Positions 18,723 through 29,257 of a DNA stretch of 39,108 nt are shown here, piece after piece. The stretch is from a virus. Below the pieces are notes generated by a model. It ran no database searches. It was not told where the DNA came from and saw only the letters and a list, made by a program, of their open reading frames with translations. Positions within the stretch are counted from its first letter, which is position 1; the number at the start of each line of letters is the position of its first letter. The position numbers and the translations under genes are program-made. The stretch covers positions 1 through 39,108 of the IMG/VR virus record IMGVR_UViG_3300029265_000561; one strand, given 5' to 3'.

Positions 18723-19484
18723 ATGAACATATCAATCATAGCAGCAAGTAGATTAAGAGCAGTTAATGCTTTGCAAGAGTTAAAAAACGCTTGTAGAATA
18801 TATATGACTTTAGACAACTCTAGCAGAAACGGTCTAATAATAACGCCTGAAAAAGGAAACGGGACAATTTCTAGTTCAGCTAGTAACTCCGCTACTGGAG
18901 TAATTAATCAAGGCGCATTAATCGACACGGTATCAAAAATACTACTAGGTAATGCTAACATGAATACAAACAACGGATTAATTAATAGTAATGTTTTTTC
19001 GTTTAGTTTTTGGAGAAAGCCCTATGTATCGCCAAACGCTAGCGGCAATTTTGAATTAATGGCTTTAGACAATTCCAGCATGAACTACTCTAGTTATATG
19101 AATAATAATTCTACCCTAGATATAGGTATAGCAACCAGAGCCACAAACGGAGCAGCTAATAATTATAGAATAAACAGTTATGCGTTATCGTCTGGTTTAC
19201 AGAGTGGTTTTAACCACATTTACGGACATTATAACACGTCAAATAATGAATCTAAACTATTTGTTAACGGGGTTGAGCAAACTAGTTTTACTATTTTTTC
19301 GCTAGGATCACAAAATACCGTTTCTGGAAATGCTTTGGTTAGAGTTGGCTCTCACAGTGTTATAAACAACAGTTTCATATTAAAAACAGCAATAGACGAA
19401 GTGGGTTTTTTTTACGGAATTGAAGCTACACAAGAAAGAGCAAATATTTTATATAATAGCGGTAACGGCTTACAACTTTTTTAA
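18723..19484 (+). CDS. LamG / concanavalin-A-like adhesion protein
   Basis: 253 residues. The pattern of a laminin-G_3 jelly roll is visible: FSFSFWRKP strand, NNYRINSYAL, GHYN with SKLFVNGVEQTSF, then IDEVGFFYGIEATQERANILYNSGNG near the end, the usual LamG_3 closing helix. Such domains bind carbohydrate or act as fibre or baseplate side domains. The start lies 1 base after the giant fibre stop, so it is probably a fibre tip or accessory protein made with it. The ligand is not predictable. Confidence 0.7.
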   Translation: MNISIIAASRLRAVNALQELKNACRIYMTLDNSSRNGLIITPEKGNGTISSSASNSATGVINQGALIDTVSKILLGNANMNTNNGLINSNVFSFSFWRKPYVSPNASGNFELMALDNSSMNYSSYMNNNSTLDIGIATRATNGAANNYRINSYALSSGLQSGFNHIYGHYNTSNNESKLFVNGVEQTSFTIFSLGSQNTVSGNALVRVGSHSVINNSFILKTAIDEVGFFYGIEATQERANILYNSGNGLQLF

Positions 19485-21625: not shown

Positions 21626-22831
21626 ATGGCAAAAATAAAAAAAAAAGAAAAGTACCTATTGCAAAACCCTATAAATCTAAATGATTATGTAGTAGGTACT
21701 GATGTATTAACAGGACAAACCAAAAACTTTAGTTTAGGTCAATTAATGAATCAAGATTATAATTTAGATAATCTTGATTTACAATGTTTAACAGTAGTTA
21801 GAAGAACTGTTACCGACTCAAATGGGTTAGTAACGGTTTTACCTATTCAACCATTAGATGTTTTTCAATCTATAATAAACAAGCTTTGTAATGTTGAAGC
21901 AATACCTGTTTTTGAACTTTTAATAATTAAAAAAGTAAGTAATTCAACTCCTACAATAGGAGAGACTTTTTTTTACAGTATTACAGTACAAAACAGAGGT
22001 AATATAAACGCAACAGGCATTCTTTTAACTGATCTCTTGCCAAATGAATTAGTATTCTCTTCGTCAAATACTAACGCTTACAACCCTACTAACGGACTTT
22101 GGACTTTGGGTAGTCTAGATGCAGGAAATTCATTAACTTTGAATATATCTGTAAACATATTAGAAAGTGTAAATGTAGGGCAAACTATAACCAACACAAT
22201 TACATCAATAGCTTCTAATCAATCAGATACATTAACTTCTGGTGAAAATCTTTCAGTAGATATAACTGTAGTAGAAAATCAAGCTTTAAGAATAGATGCT
22301 GGGTATAATAGGTTTATAAACTTATCGGAATCGACAACTTCATTAAGTGCTATTTCAAGCAATACTAATGTCACCTATTTATGGGAGCAAATTACTAGCG
22401 GAACTGTAGAGATATCAAACTCTAATTTAAAGGAAACAATAGTTTCTCTAGATAACAGTAGTGATTTTGAGTTTAAAATAACGATGACTGATAATATAAA
22501 TGGTGTAACCACATCTGACACAGTTAAGGTTTTTAGGAGGGAAAACTCGGTTTCAGATTCACCAATAGTTTCTTTATCAGACCAAAACACTACTTTGTCT
22601 AGCGTTACAATTAATGGAGAGTACACAGATCCTAGAGGTTTATTAAGCCCTCAATTTCAATGGAGTTTTATTCCAACAGGAAGTACAGGCACTAGTCATA
22701 CAATAGTTAATGAAAATGTACAAAACGTTACTATTAATGATTTAACTACAGGTGTTTATATATTTAGATTAACTGTTACAAACAGTAATGGTTTTATTGG
22801 AGAAGATGCCGTGGTTATACAGATCGGTTAA
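21626..22831 (+). CDS. Second tail fibre with DUF11 and Ig/PKD-like domains
   Basis: 401 residues. Residues 1-40 match the anchor of the giant fibre (MAKIKKKEKY, DYVVGTD, TKNF). Residues about 108-215 form a DUF11 domain (SNSTPTIGETFFYSITVQN, TDLLPNELVF, TITNTITS). Two Ig/PKD-like domains follow: about 220-305 (LSAISSNTNVTYLWEQ) and 315-400 (QFQWSF, GVYIFRLTVTNSNG). It is likely attached to the same tail site as the giant fibre and presents Ig-like surface-binding domains. The stop codon overlaps the stop of the convergent gene (TTAA). Confidence 0.75.
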   Translation: MAKIKKKEKYLLQNPINLNDYVVGTDVLTGQTKNFSLGQLMNQDYNLDNLDLQCLTVVRRTVTDSNGLVTVLPIQPLDVFQSIINKLCNVEAIPVFELLIIKKVSNSTPTIGETFFYSITVQNRGNINATGILLTDLLPNELVFSSSNTNAYNPTNGLWTLGSLDAGNSLTLNISVNILESVNVGQTITNTITSIASNQSDTLTSGENLSVDITVVENQALRIDAGYNRFINLSESTTSLSAISSNTNVTYLWEQITSGTVEISNSNLKETIVSLDNSSDFEFKITMTDNINGVTTSDTVKVFRRENSVSDSPIVSLSDQNTTLSSVTINGEYTDPRGLLSPQFQWSFIPTGSTGTSHTIVNENVQNVTINDLTTGVYIFRLTVTNSNGFIGEDAVVIQIG

Positions 22832-27090: not shown

Positions 27091-27126
27091 AAAACCCTAG
27101 CATTAATTTGTTAGGGTTTTCTTTTT
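27091..27126. terminator. Terminator between convergent operons
   Basis: AAAACCCTA, 12-base loop, TAGGGTTTT, followed by CTTTTTG on + and preceded by an A-run, so it can work in both directions. It ends the rightward metabolism operon. The stop codon of the leftward 113-residue gene (27111-27113) lies within it. Confidence 0.7.
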
Positions 27127-27452
27127 GAATATATTGAGTATTCATTATAGACCTCCATAGCTCTATTAAGAGTAGATATTTCTCGTTTTATTCTAATGTC
27201 AATACAACTATTTTCTGCCGTGTATTTTTCATTGTCAGTATATAGCCACCAAGTGTTTGTATCATGCCTACCAATCTCTATTGACACACTAGATAACCAC
27301 CTTCGATAACAAGAGTGTATAATAAATTCTGGTAAGTTCTCAAAAGGGATCAAACCTAAAACCAAGACTCCATAATCAACAATTTTAAAATTAGAGTCCT
27401 CTTGTAAGATCCAATCATTAAAATCTAACCTAGCCTTTCCATGTAGTCTCAT
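27111..27452 (-). CDS. Protein of unknown function downstream of the helicase
   Basis: 113 residues, Trp/Tyr/Ile-rich, alternating beta-like stretches (FKIVDYGVLVLGLIPFENL, SVSIEIGRHDTNTWWLY) and a C-terminal helix. It overlaps the helicase stop by 1 base, so it is translated with it. No family recognised; it could be an accessory subunit of the helicase. Confidence 0.6.
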   Translation of the reverse strand: MRLHGKARLDFNDWILQEDSNFKIVDYGVLVLGLIPFENLPEFIIHSCYRRWLSSVSIEIGRHDTNTWWLYTDNEKYTAENSCIDIRIKREISTLNRAMEVYNEYSIYSKRKP

Positions 27453-29257
27453 TAGTATTCTACTATCTTAACGTTAATGCCTAAATCTTTTGCTTCGTTT
27501 ATTTTACACATCGTCCTAGCACAATTACCATTATAAAAAGCAATTACTCCGTCCACAACCTTCATGTTACCGTCATATTCTAATCCTAAAAAATCCTTAC
27601 TGCCAGCAATACAAGTTTTAAGAACATCGTCTTTACGCCTGTCTATACCGTCTAAAACAGCAAAGTTTTTTTCGCTAGACAAAAAATAATTTATTCTTTC
27701 CAAATATAATTTATAAACATCAAAATCTTTATCGGCTAAAATTAAGATAGTCATATCAAATATAGACTTTAAACCCATTTCTTTAATAACAGAATCACGG
27801 TAGTCAATCATGTTTTTAGTATCAAAAGACCATTTAGACTTCGTTAGAGTCCATTTTAGATAGCTAGATTCCGTTTTTACTAAATCTTTAATGCTTTTGC
27901 CACTATGTTTGCCAAAGTGCATTAGATAGCCTTGTTCGTGTTTTAATAAATCTTTTTCTTTTTTACGTTGGGTATAATTGAATTTAGATATTTCGTGATT
28001 TCTAGAAGGTTGATATCCGTCTTTAAGAGAATATCCTGTAAGCATTTTGTCACTATTCCAAGCTTGATAACCATTAGTATAAGGTTGGTCTTCAAATGTA
28101 ATATCTTCCACTCTTCCAAAGCTATTATAGCTTCCGCTAAGATCAATTATAGTGGCAAACTCTTTACCTTCAAACTTCCTTACTAAACGACCAACTATTT
28201 GATACCATATTATTAATGAATTAGTAGGTCTTGCCATTACAGCACTTGCTAAATTAGGTTTGTCAAAGCCTTCAATTAAAACACCTACGTTAGATATTCC
28301 TTTTAACCTACCTTCTTTAAAATCATTTATAATTCTAGTGCGATCTTTCTTTTTAGTTTTACCATGAAGAACCTCAAATCCTTCTAATAAAAAAGCTACT
28401 TGTTCAGCTTCTTTAACGCTTGCTAAATAAACTATGCACGATTCATTACCTTCTGAAAAAAGTTTATTTACCGCAGCAACGCATTTAGAAACTATATCGT
28501 TTTTGGCATAAAAAATTTCTAATGACTTTTGAGTATAATCATTGCCAGTAGTGTTAAGCTCTAGCATTGTCTCATCTAGGTCTTCTACTTCATATCTAAT
28601 AGGACTCCACCTACCTTTGTCTACAATATCTTTTATTTGAACTATGCTTTCTATTGATGAATAAAAACAGTCACGCATTCTATTCATCATCTTTAGCCAA
28701 CCTTTATCTAGTCTTAAAGGAGTAGCCGTAACACCTATGAGTCTACACTTTTTTATTTGCTCATAGAAAACATGAAGTTGAGATTCTTTTAAAGAGTTAT
28801 TATGAGCTTCATCACAAAGTATAACAACCTCTTTGTCTATGTAAAAGTCAATGTATTTTTTTATTGTTCCTATAGTTGCAAATGTAACTTTACCTAAATC
28901 TTTTTTACCTAAACTAGCAGAGCAAATAGAAGCCTTGTAGCCATATCCTATGTACTTTTCATAATTCTGTTCAAGCAATTCTTTTTTAGGAACAATGTTT
29001 ATGAACCACTTTTCTGGAAAAGCAGCAGCAACGTTAGCTATTAAGATACTCTTTCCGTATGAGGTGGGGTAAACAAAAAGACCTTTTTTCTGTGACTTGC
29101 CTTTAACAAAAGCAATCATCTTGTCAATTTCTATTTGTTGATCTGGGTAAGGCTTATGCAATTTATTTATATTTTTTATTGAGTTTATCCGATGTTGTAA
29201 AACATATTGCTTAATGTTCGTGAAATTCCATTCCACACGTCTTGCATTTTGTGGCAC
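27452..29257 (-). CDS. SF2 helicase fused to DUF3820-like and DUF2493/SLOG-like domains
   Basis: 601 residues. Superfamily 2 motifs: I PTSYGKS (64-70), II DEAH (149-152), III TATP (177-180), VI QIVGRLVR (353-360). Residues 447-470 (HFGKHSGKS, then SYLKW) match the small DUF3820/ExoX-C-terminal-like module. Residues about 502-601 resemble DUF2493 of the SLOG superfamily: TILILADKDF, then VLDGIDRRKDDVLK, then VIAFYNGNCARTMCKINEAK and GINVKIV; the usual GaD and GT signatures are degraded. It probably remodels DNA during phage replication; the C-terminal domains may sense a nucleotide or bind DNA ends. The start is upstream of the Q-motif-like YPDQQ and overlaps the previous gene by 47 bases. Confidence 0.85.
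   Translation of the reverse strand: MPQNARRVEWNFTNIKQYVLQHRINSIKNINKLHKPYPDQQIEIDKMIAFVKGKSQKKGLFVYPTSYGKSILIANVAAAFPEKWFINIVPKKELLEQNYEKYIGYGYKASICSASLGKKDLGKVTFATIGTIKKYIDFYIDKEVVILCDEAHNNSLKESQLHVFYEQIKKCRLIGVTATPLRLDKGWLKMMNRMRDCFYSSIESIVQIKDIVDKGRWSPIRYEVEDLDETMLELNTTGNDYTQKSLEIFYAKNDIVSKCVAAVNKLFSEGNESCIVYLASVKEAEQVAFLLEGFEVLHGKTKKKDRTRIINDFKEGRLKGISNVGVLIEGFDKPNLASAVMARPTNSLIIWYQIVGRLVRKFEGKEFATIIDLSGSYNSFGRVEDITFEDQPYTNGYQAWNSDKMLTGYSLKDGYQPSRNHEISKFNYTQRKKEKDLLKHEQGYLMHFGKHSGKSIKDLVKTESSYLKWTLTKSKWSFDTKNMIDYRDSVIKEMGLKSIFDMTILILADKDFDVYKLYLERINYFLSSEKNFAVLDGIDRRKDDVLKTCIAGSKDFLGLEYDGNMKVVDGVIAFYNGNCARTMCKINEAKDLGINVKIVEY

Follow-up and report, generated by a model that had tools for sequence, protein, structure and literature searches.

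A phage RadD-like SF2 helicase fused to a degenerate DUF2493-type SLOG domain

Why would a phage helicase carry at its C terminus a relative of the SLOG domains in which most of the scored motif residues have been exchanged? The question arises from an open reading frame (ORF) on the minus strand of a virus record of 39,108 bases (the window, meaning the whole stretch of DNA analysed here), which occupies positions 27452-29257 and encodes 601 amino acids when counted from the GTG at 29257. A check of frame and motifs found this ORF, and the motifs named for it in the initial annotation, to be present (Table 1). Likeness to other helicases starts at about residue 33 of the 601-residue frame, and the TTG at 29161, which is preceded by an A-rich stretch, is a likelier start codon than the GTG. 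The window's terminase shares 57% identity, across 99% of its length, with the terminase of Tenacibaculum phage Gundel_1 (family Pachyviridae), a likeness that points to a marine-type member of the Flavobacteriia, or close kin, as the probable host. A sister contig (L002) is 91% identical to the window at the nucleotide level; the short ORF downstream of the helicase is kept at the equivalent place there, with a dN/dS of 0.109, and matches phrog_34301 among the PHROGs families (E 0.0016). Elsewhere in the window, a DUF11 plus PKD-domain protein (21626-22831) and a Laminin_G_3 lectin-like protein (18723-19484) lie among the late genes and are possibly surface-binding, and an ORF at the end of the sister contig (L002:8744-9076) encodes a protein that resembles, by eye, an IS200/Y1-type transposase.

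Table 1. Positions in the window of the parts of the helicase and of the adjoining ORF
Feature	Positions	Strand	Residues	Basis or remark
RadD-like SF2 helicase core	28100..29161	-	33-386	Motifs I, II, III, V and VI intact; Pfam, RadD structures
ExoX-like_C/DUF3820-type module, FGKHSGKS...SYLKW	27773..27940	-	about 440-495	PF20600, relatives
Degenerate DUF2493 (YAcAr) SLOG domain	27455..27754	-	502-601	hhalign/HMM, alignment, viral fold matches
113-aa ORF	27111..27452	-		Directly downstream of the helicase, overlaps the helicase stop

The protein is a member of the SF2 helicases. A script located a Walker A-like PTSYGKS (residues 64-70), DEAH (149-152), TATP (177-180), motif V as EGFDKP (329-334) and motif VI as GRLVR (356-360), with all core motifs in SF2 order, and Pfam searches of the whole protein returned ResIII (E 1.2e-17) and Helicase_C (E 9.7e-11), both above their cut-offs, in agreement with the intact DEAH-type motifs described at the outset. 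Among PHROGs the core matches phrog_16, and both the best PDB sequence match (E 1.1e-30, residues 40-377) and the best PDB fold match of the protein were to RadD (YejH), an SF2 DNA repair protein of E. coli. Judged by its sequence, however, the core is RadD-like and not RadD: the RadD equivalog model NF053632 (NCBIfam) reached 157.7 bits, far below its curated cut-off of 720. RadD, as described in the part of PMC9049331 drawn on here, possesses two zinc fingers and a C-terminal domain of its own, whereas the window protein has ExoX_C-type and SLOG tails and, in a script scan of its entire length, no CxxC pair. The RadD ATPase speeds up RecA strand exchange, and no stand-alone helicase activity was seen, according to the portion of PMC8887467 used here.

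Behind the core, FGKHSGKS (448-455) and SYLKW (465-469) confirmed the ExoX-like module of the initial annotation. ExoX-like_C (PF20600) scored 23.8 bits (E 2.9e-5) in the whole protein, below its cut-off of 26.5, and 27.7 bits, above that cut-off, when the module was scanned alone; DUF3820/QSregVF_b (PF12843) reached 12.7 bits on the module (E 0.12), below its cut-off of 22. The tails of related helicases were surveyed at 220 loci, which yielded 220 frames (192 unique), and were classed by length in the 188 frames reaching query residue 340, four having been dropped, including one with a probable intein (L094). Seventy-three frames stop right after the core, 97 bear a tail of 41-157 residues and 18 are longer; the last group consists of the sister, a frame with two FGK modules (L179), one with an insertion (L180) and 15 with two or three CxxC pairs. 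The pairing of a helicase with a DUF3820-type module is thus ordinary, belonging to the commonest tail class (97/188) of these relatives. A GK/GQ-aromatic motif was present in 94 of the 97 tailed helicases but also in 14 of the 73 short ones, an approximate count given the looseness of the pattern, and at E <= 0.01 Pfam placed PF20600 in 15 and PF12843 in 10 of 42 representative relatives. The module is common to most relatives that have a tail, and on these sequence comparisons its union with a helicase is not new. The helicase of Cellulophaga phage phi17:2 (ALO80484.1), for example, is 47% identical over residues 28-472 and alike in core and FGK module; such ExoX-like_C/DUF3820-tailed helicases of Bacteroidota and phages, unlike the window protein, lack a terminal SLOG domain.

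Several relatives showed peculiarities of their own. By eye, two Bacteroidales helicases (L179 and L228) contain a tandem pair of FGK/ExoX_C-like modules. The related helicase at L094:4022-6622 has a large in-frame insertion that, from its LAGLIDADG_3 match and a sub-cut-off Hom_end match, probably represents an intein that carries a homing endonuclease. The helicase at L180:2950-5238 also has a large in-frame insertion; this one is Cys-led, ends in an Asn-Cys junction at motif VI and looks intein-like by eye, with no Pfam match.

The last part of the protein is clearly homologous to DUF2493/YAcAr SLOG domains by its sequence profile, which resembles theirs beyond chance from end to end. Searched alone, the domain had no Pfam match and no PDB sequence match, and the Pfam model PF10686 (DUF2493/YAcAr) matched neither the window protein nor the domain. 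The window's C-terminal piece matched nothing in PHROGs, and the sister's matched only at E 0.26; pairwise BLAST of the window protein against the DUF2493 protein of phi17:2 gave nothing significant, and a tblastn search of 50,697 phage records, with the final 139 residues as query, gave no match at E <= 1. We built a DUF2493 profile from 71 phage sequences, seeded from the stand-alone phi17:2 protein (ALO80440.1) and widened to 82 viral loci (L008-L089). With this profile, hmmsearch scored the domain at 22.9 bits, whereas none of 2000 shuffles exceeded 12.8. The hhalign score was 51.6 over 100 columns; the highest among 300 shuffles was 24.0, and the highest among the 41 remaining frames of the window that reach 100 aa was 16.8. 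The profile comparison proposed in the initial annotation thus upheld a DUF2493-like identity for the last 100 or so residues, and extends end to end to stand-alone phage DUF2493/YAcAr (PF10686) proteins such as ALO80440.1. DprA and LOG were rejected as nearer SLOG relatives, as profiles of eight proteins each scored 11.2 and 14.1, within the shuffles. An intact DUF2493 protein used as a control also scored low against these DprA and LOG profiles (23.4 and 18.8), so the test sets DUF2493 apart and leaves wider kinship possible.

Structure prediction gave a mixed picture of the fold. In the full-length AlphaFold2 model (42 alignment rows), the core and the module were modelled well and the last 80-100 residues, which only two rows cover, had a pLDDT of about 30-50. 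A model of the domain made with 60 DUF2493 rows, and hence dependent on the assumed homology, reached a mean pLDDT of 76.8 and a pTM of 0.73, with a poor middle. Foldseek searches of the PDB with this model found nothing at E <= 0.001, the best match being DprA (E 0.11), and in VIA-align searches of the PDB YpsA ranked second by Z (7.6) among many unrelated Rossmann folds; neither of the two stood out. Against predicted viral structures, the same domain model had eight matches at E <= 0.001, with DUF2493/YspA models down to E 3e-4. The names among these eight include a Rossmann-fold nucleotide-binding protein, a DUF2493 protein and a YspA/YpsA-related SLOG protein, as well as a putative guanylate kinase and a D29 Gp61-like protein; lower matches were mostly named DUF2493 and YspA-SLOG, with some deoxyribosyltransferases. 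The top viral match, F1D2S8, is a 561-aa protein without a name that might come from Vibrio phage ICP1 or ICP2, but the DUF2493 profile found no match in the records of these two phages. For the proposed SLOG or DUF2493 fold the outcome is mixed: most named top viral matches are DUF2493/YspA-SLOG, whereas the PDB offered no match at E <= 0.001 and the model had itself been built with DUF2493 rows.

The alignment confirmed that the nucleotide-binding signatures are altered, as first noticed: DRRKDD replaces the GaD loop and NCART the SxGT loop. In addition, LADK replaces AG(G/S)R, YD replaces the RN pair, and the stretch that bears FPADW is missing from the window domain. This alignment held 62 rows, namely the window, the sister and 60 other phage DUF2493 sequences. 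Measured on the residues of AG(G/S)R, GAD, RN and DGxSxGT, the domain would not qualify as an active-type DUF2493 SLOG domain, as the window and the sister keep two of the ten scored residues (D544 of GAD, and T582) and have changed eight; among the 60 other rows, all ten are present in 52, nine in seven and eight in one, a contrast partly built in, as the search patterns used to collect these rows included AG(G/S)R or RN, with the GAD and SxGT positions outside the patterns. Window and sister alike show changes at the motif glycines, at the RN pair and, in the last loop, at S-x-G; the structural positions retained are F512, the SG, AG and WDG glycines, and a Met. In the single pairwise comparison with the sister, dN/dS was 0.036 in the core and 0.095 in the module. 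In the SLOG part, whose 100 codons contain 23 synonymous and 9 non-synonymous changes, it was 0.069. From this low ratio in one pair of sequences, the degenerate domain appears to be maintained under purifying selection.

We found the fusion only in the window and the sister contig when the 192 unique helicases were searched with the DUF2493 profile; the conservation in other phages that the initial annotation had proposed to check thus extends to one further contig and to no other of these helicases. No separate DUF2493 gene was detected with PF10686 elsewhere in the window or the sister record, and such a gene is held by two of the 16 records with close helicases (the sister included). Among the 220 helicase loci, a DUF2493 frame lies in the flank of three (L272, L279 and L320) besides that of the sister, two of these being 62-aa scraps, and none of the 220 has a stand-alone DUF2493 gene adjoining the related helicase, the arrangement expected of the ancestor. 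Phage DUF2493 proteins mostly stand alone with intact motifs, whereas the window domain is fused, shortened and degenerate: at 81 of the 82 phage DUF2493 loci the open frame does not exceed 234 aa, with motifs intact nearly throughout. On a viral contig, L077:250-3819 holds an intact-motif DUF2493 domain in a 1272-aa frame that encodes a protein of over 1100 aa with no helicase signs by eye, possibly a virion-injected polyprotein, and the DUF2493 protein at L011:3001-3387 has a long insertion ahead of GAD and a changed last loop. In bacteria, the DUF2493 profile hit four places in three of 296 genomes from the order of a Flavobacterium genome (G002), each within an open frame of 125-162 aa, a size that leaves no room for a fusion in those 296 genomes. 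A two-sequence profile of the C terminus gave weak partial matches (E 0.002-0.01) in four of 395 genomes of the same class and none in four further genomes; the four matches were rejected as chance, being partial and lying in large frames that look unrelated by eye and that we take to encode an AraC-type regulator, PurH, a glycosidase and a Mur ligase.

Taken together, the reading that we favour, tentatively and somewhat short of an even chance, is a RadD-like accessory helicase of recombination or replication whose C terminus is a fusion-derived pseudo-SLOG docking domain that has lost ancestral nucleotide binding. The motor would be an ATP-driven remodeller of DNA that is branched or coated with recombinase, and may act at phage recombination or replication intermediates in a RadD-like job, as suggested by the likeness of the core and by phi17:2, where the related helicase gene lies upstream of the recombinase A and thymidylate synthase genes. 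(The stand-alone DUF2493 gene of phi17:2, L007:2231-2590 or KT962247.1 26730-27089, is set between structural-protein genes, a placement that may point to a late-made or packaged product.) The C-terminal domain may have arisen when read-through joined a stand-alone DUF2493 gene to the helicase: its first residue, Met502, is the position where stand-alone DUF2493 proteins begin, which fits a read-through joining of neighbouring genes, and an internal translation start at this Met is possible. The fused domain would no longer bind the ancestral nucleotide. Its fold may be retained not as a ligand switch but as a surface for docking or scaffolding, on which a partner protein, DNA or the protein itself could settle.

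The helicase controlled by a ligand that the initial annotation envisaged is not supported by the domain, with eight of ten scored motif residues changed and the FPADW stretch missing. A version of it, in which the domain still binds a small molecule with altered specificity and gates the helicase, is nonetheless the alternative that we weigh most seriously, although we consider it doubtful. Sporadic phage fusions of SLOG domains to nucleic-acid enzymes, an SF1 helicase among them, have been read as sensor-regulated enzymes, with NAD+/ADP-ribose derivatives as the proposed ligands (PMC9503650, in the part drawn on here); the domain is under apparent purifying selection, and by eye the basic DRRKDD loop could contact phosphate. 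Against sensing stand the motif glycines, RN pair and S-x-G, changed in both sequences, and the missing stretch, yet a new ligand for the degenerate domain is conceivable. We regard as unlikely a rewired SLOG domain that gates the RadD-like motor, in which the DRRKDD and NCART loops would together make up a new pocket or surface for sensing either an immune signal of the host or an intermediate of recombination. A shade less unlikely is a role in defence or counter-defence in place of recombination or replication, since the core resembles defence helicase subunits (PADLOC mREase_IV, E 5.9e-18; PbeA, E 8.4e-15) and SLOG domains are known in immune systems (PMC9503650, same part); these PADLOC matches, however, are confined to the shared helicase core, and Pfam and NCBIfam found no nuclease or effector domain in the protein. 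That the C terminus is a neutral leftover of the fusion, without a role, would suit the loss of most motif residues and its occurrence in two contigs only, but the excess of synonymous changes over its 100 codons makes this improbable. Least probable of all is a convergent likeness of some other Rossmann-like or unrelated domain to DUF2493; the absence of Pfam and PDB sequence matches, the non-significant pairwise BLAST, the weak PDB fold matches and the low confidence of the AlphaFold2 model made without DUF2493 rows would allow it, whereas profile scores far above the shuffles, an end-to-end alignment of 100 residues and viral fold matches named mostly DUF2493/YspA-SLOG argue for homology.

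We found no description of a RadD-like core, ExoX_C-type module and degenerate SLOG domain in one protein in the open-licence PMC literature. The published phage fusions link a SLOG domain with a DNA enzyme, as the window protein does; compared by their description in the part of PMC9503650 drawn on here, the window protein differs in its SF2 RadD-like core, its ExoX_C-type module and the degeneracy of its SLOG domain. The finding would thus extend phage SLOG fusions from the published SF1 helicase to a RadD-like SF2 motor, and the survey shows that a helicase with an ExoX_C-type module is widespread among Bacteroidota and the phages of this group. The window protein also provides a natural example of a SLOG domain that has had its motif residues exchanged and yet appears to stay under purifying selection, and so lets one ask whether SLOG domains on DNA enzymes are sensors, as has been proposed, or scaffolds.
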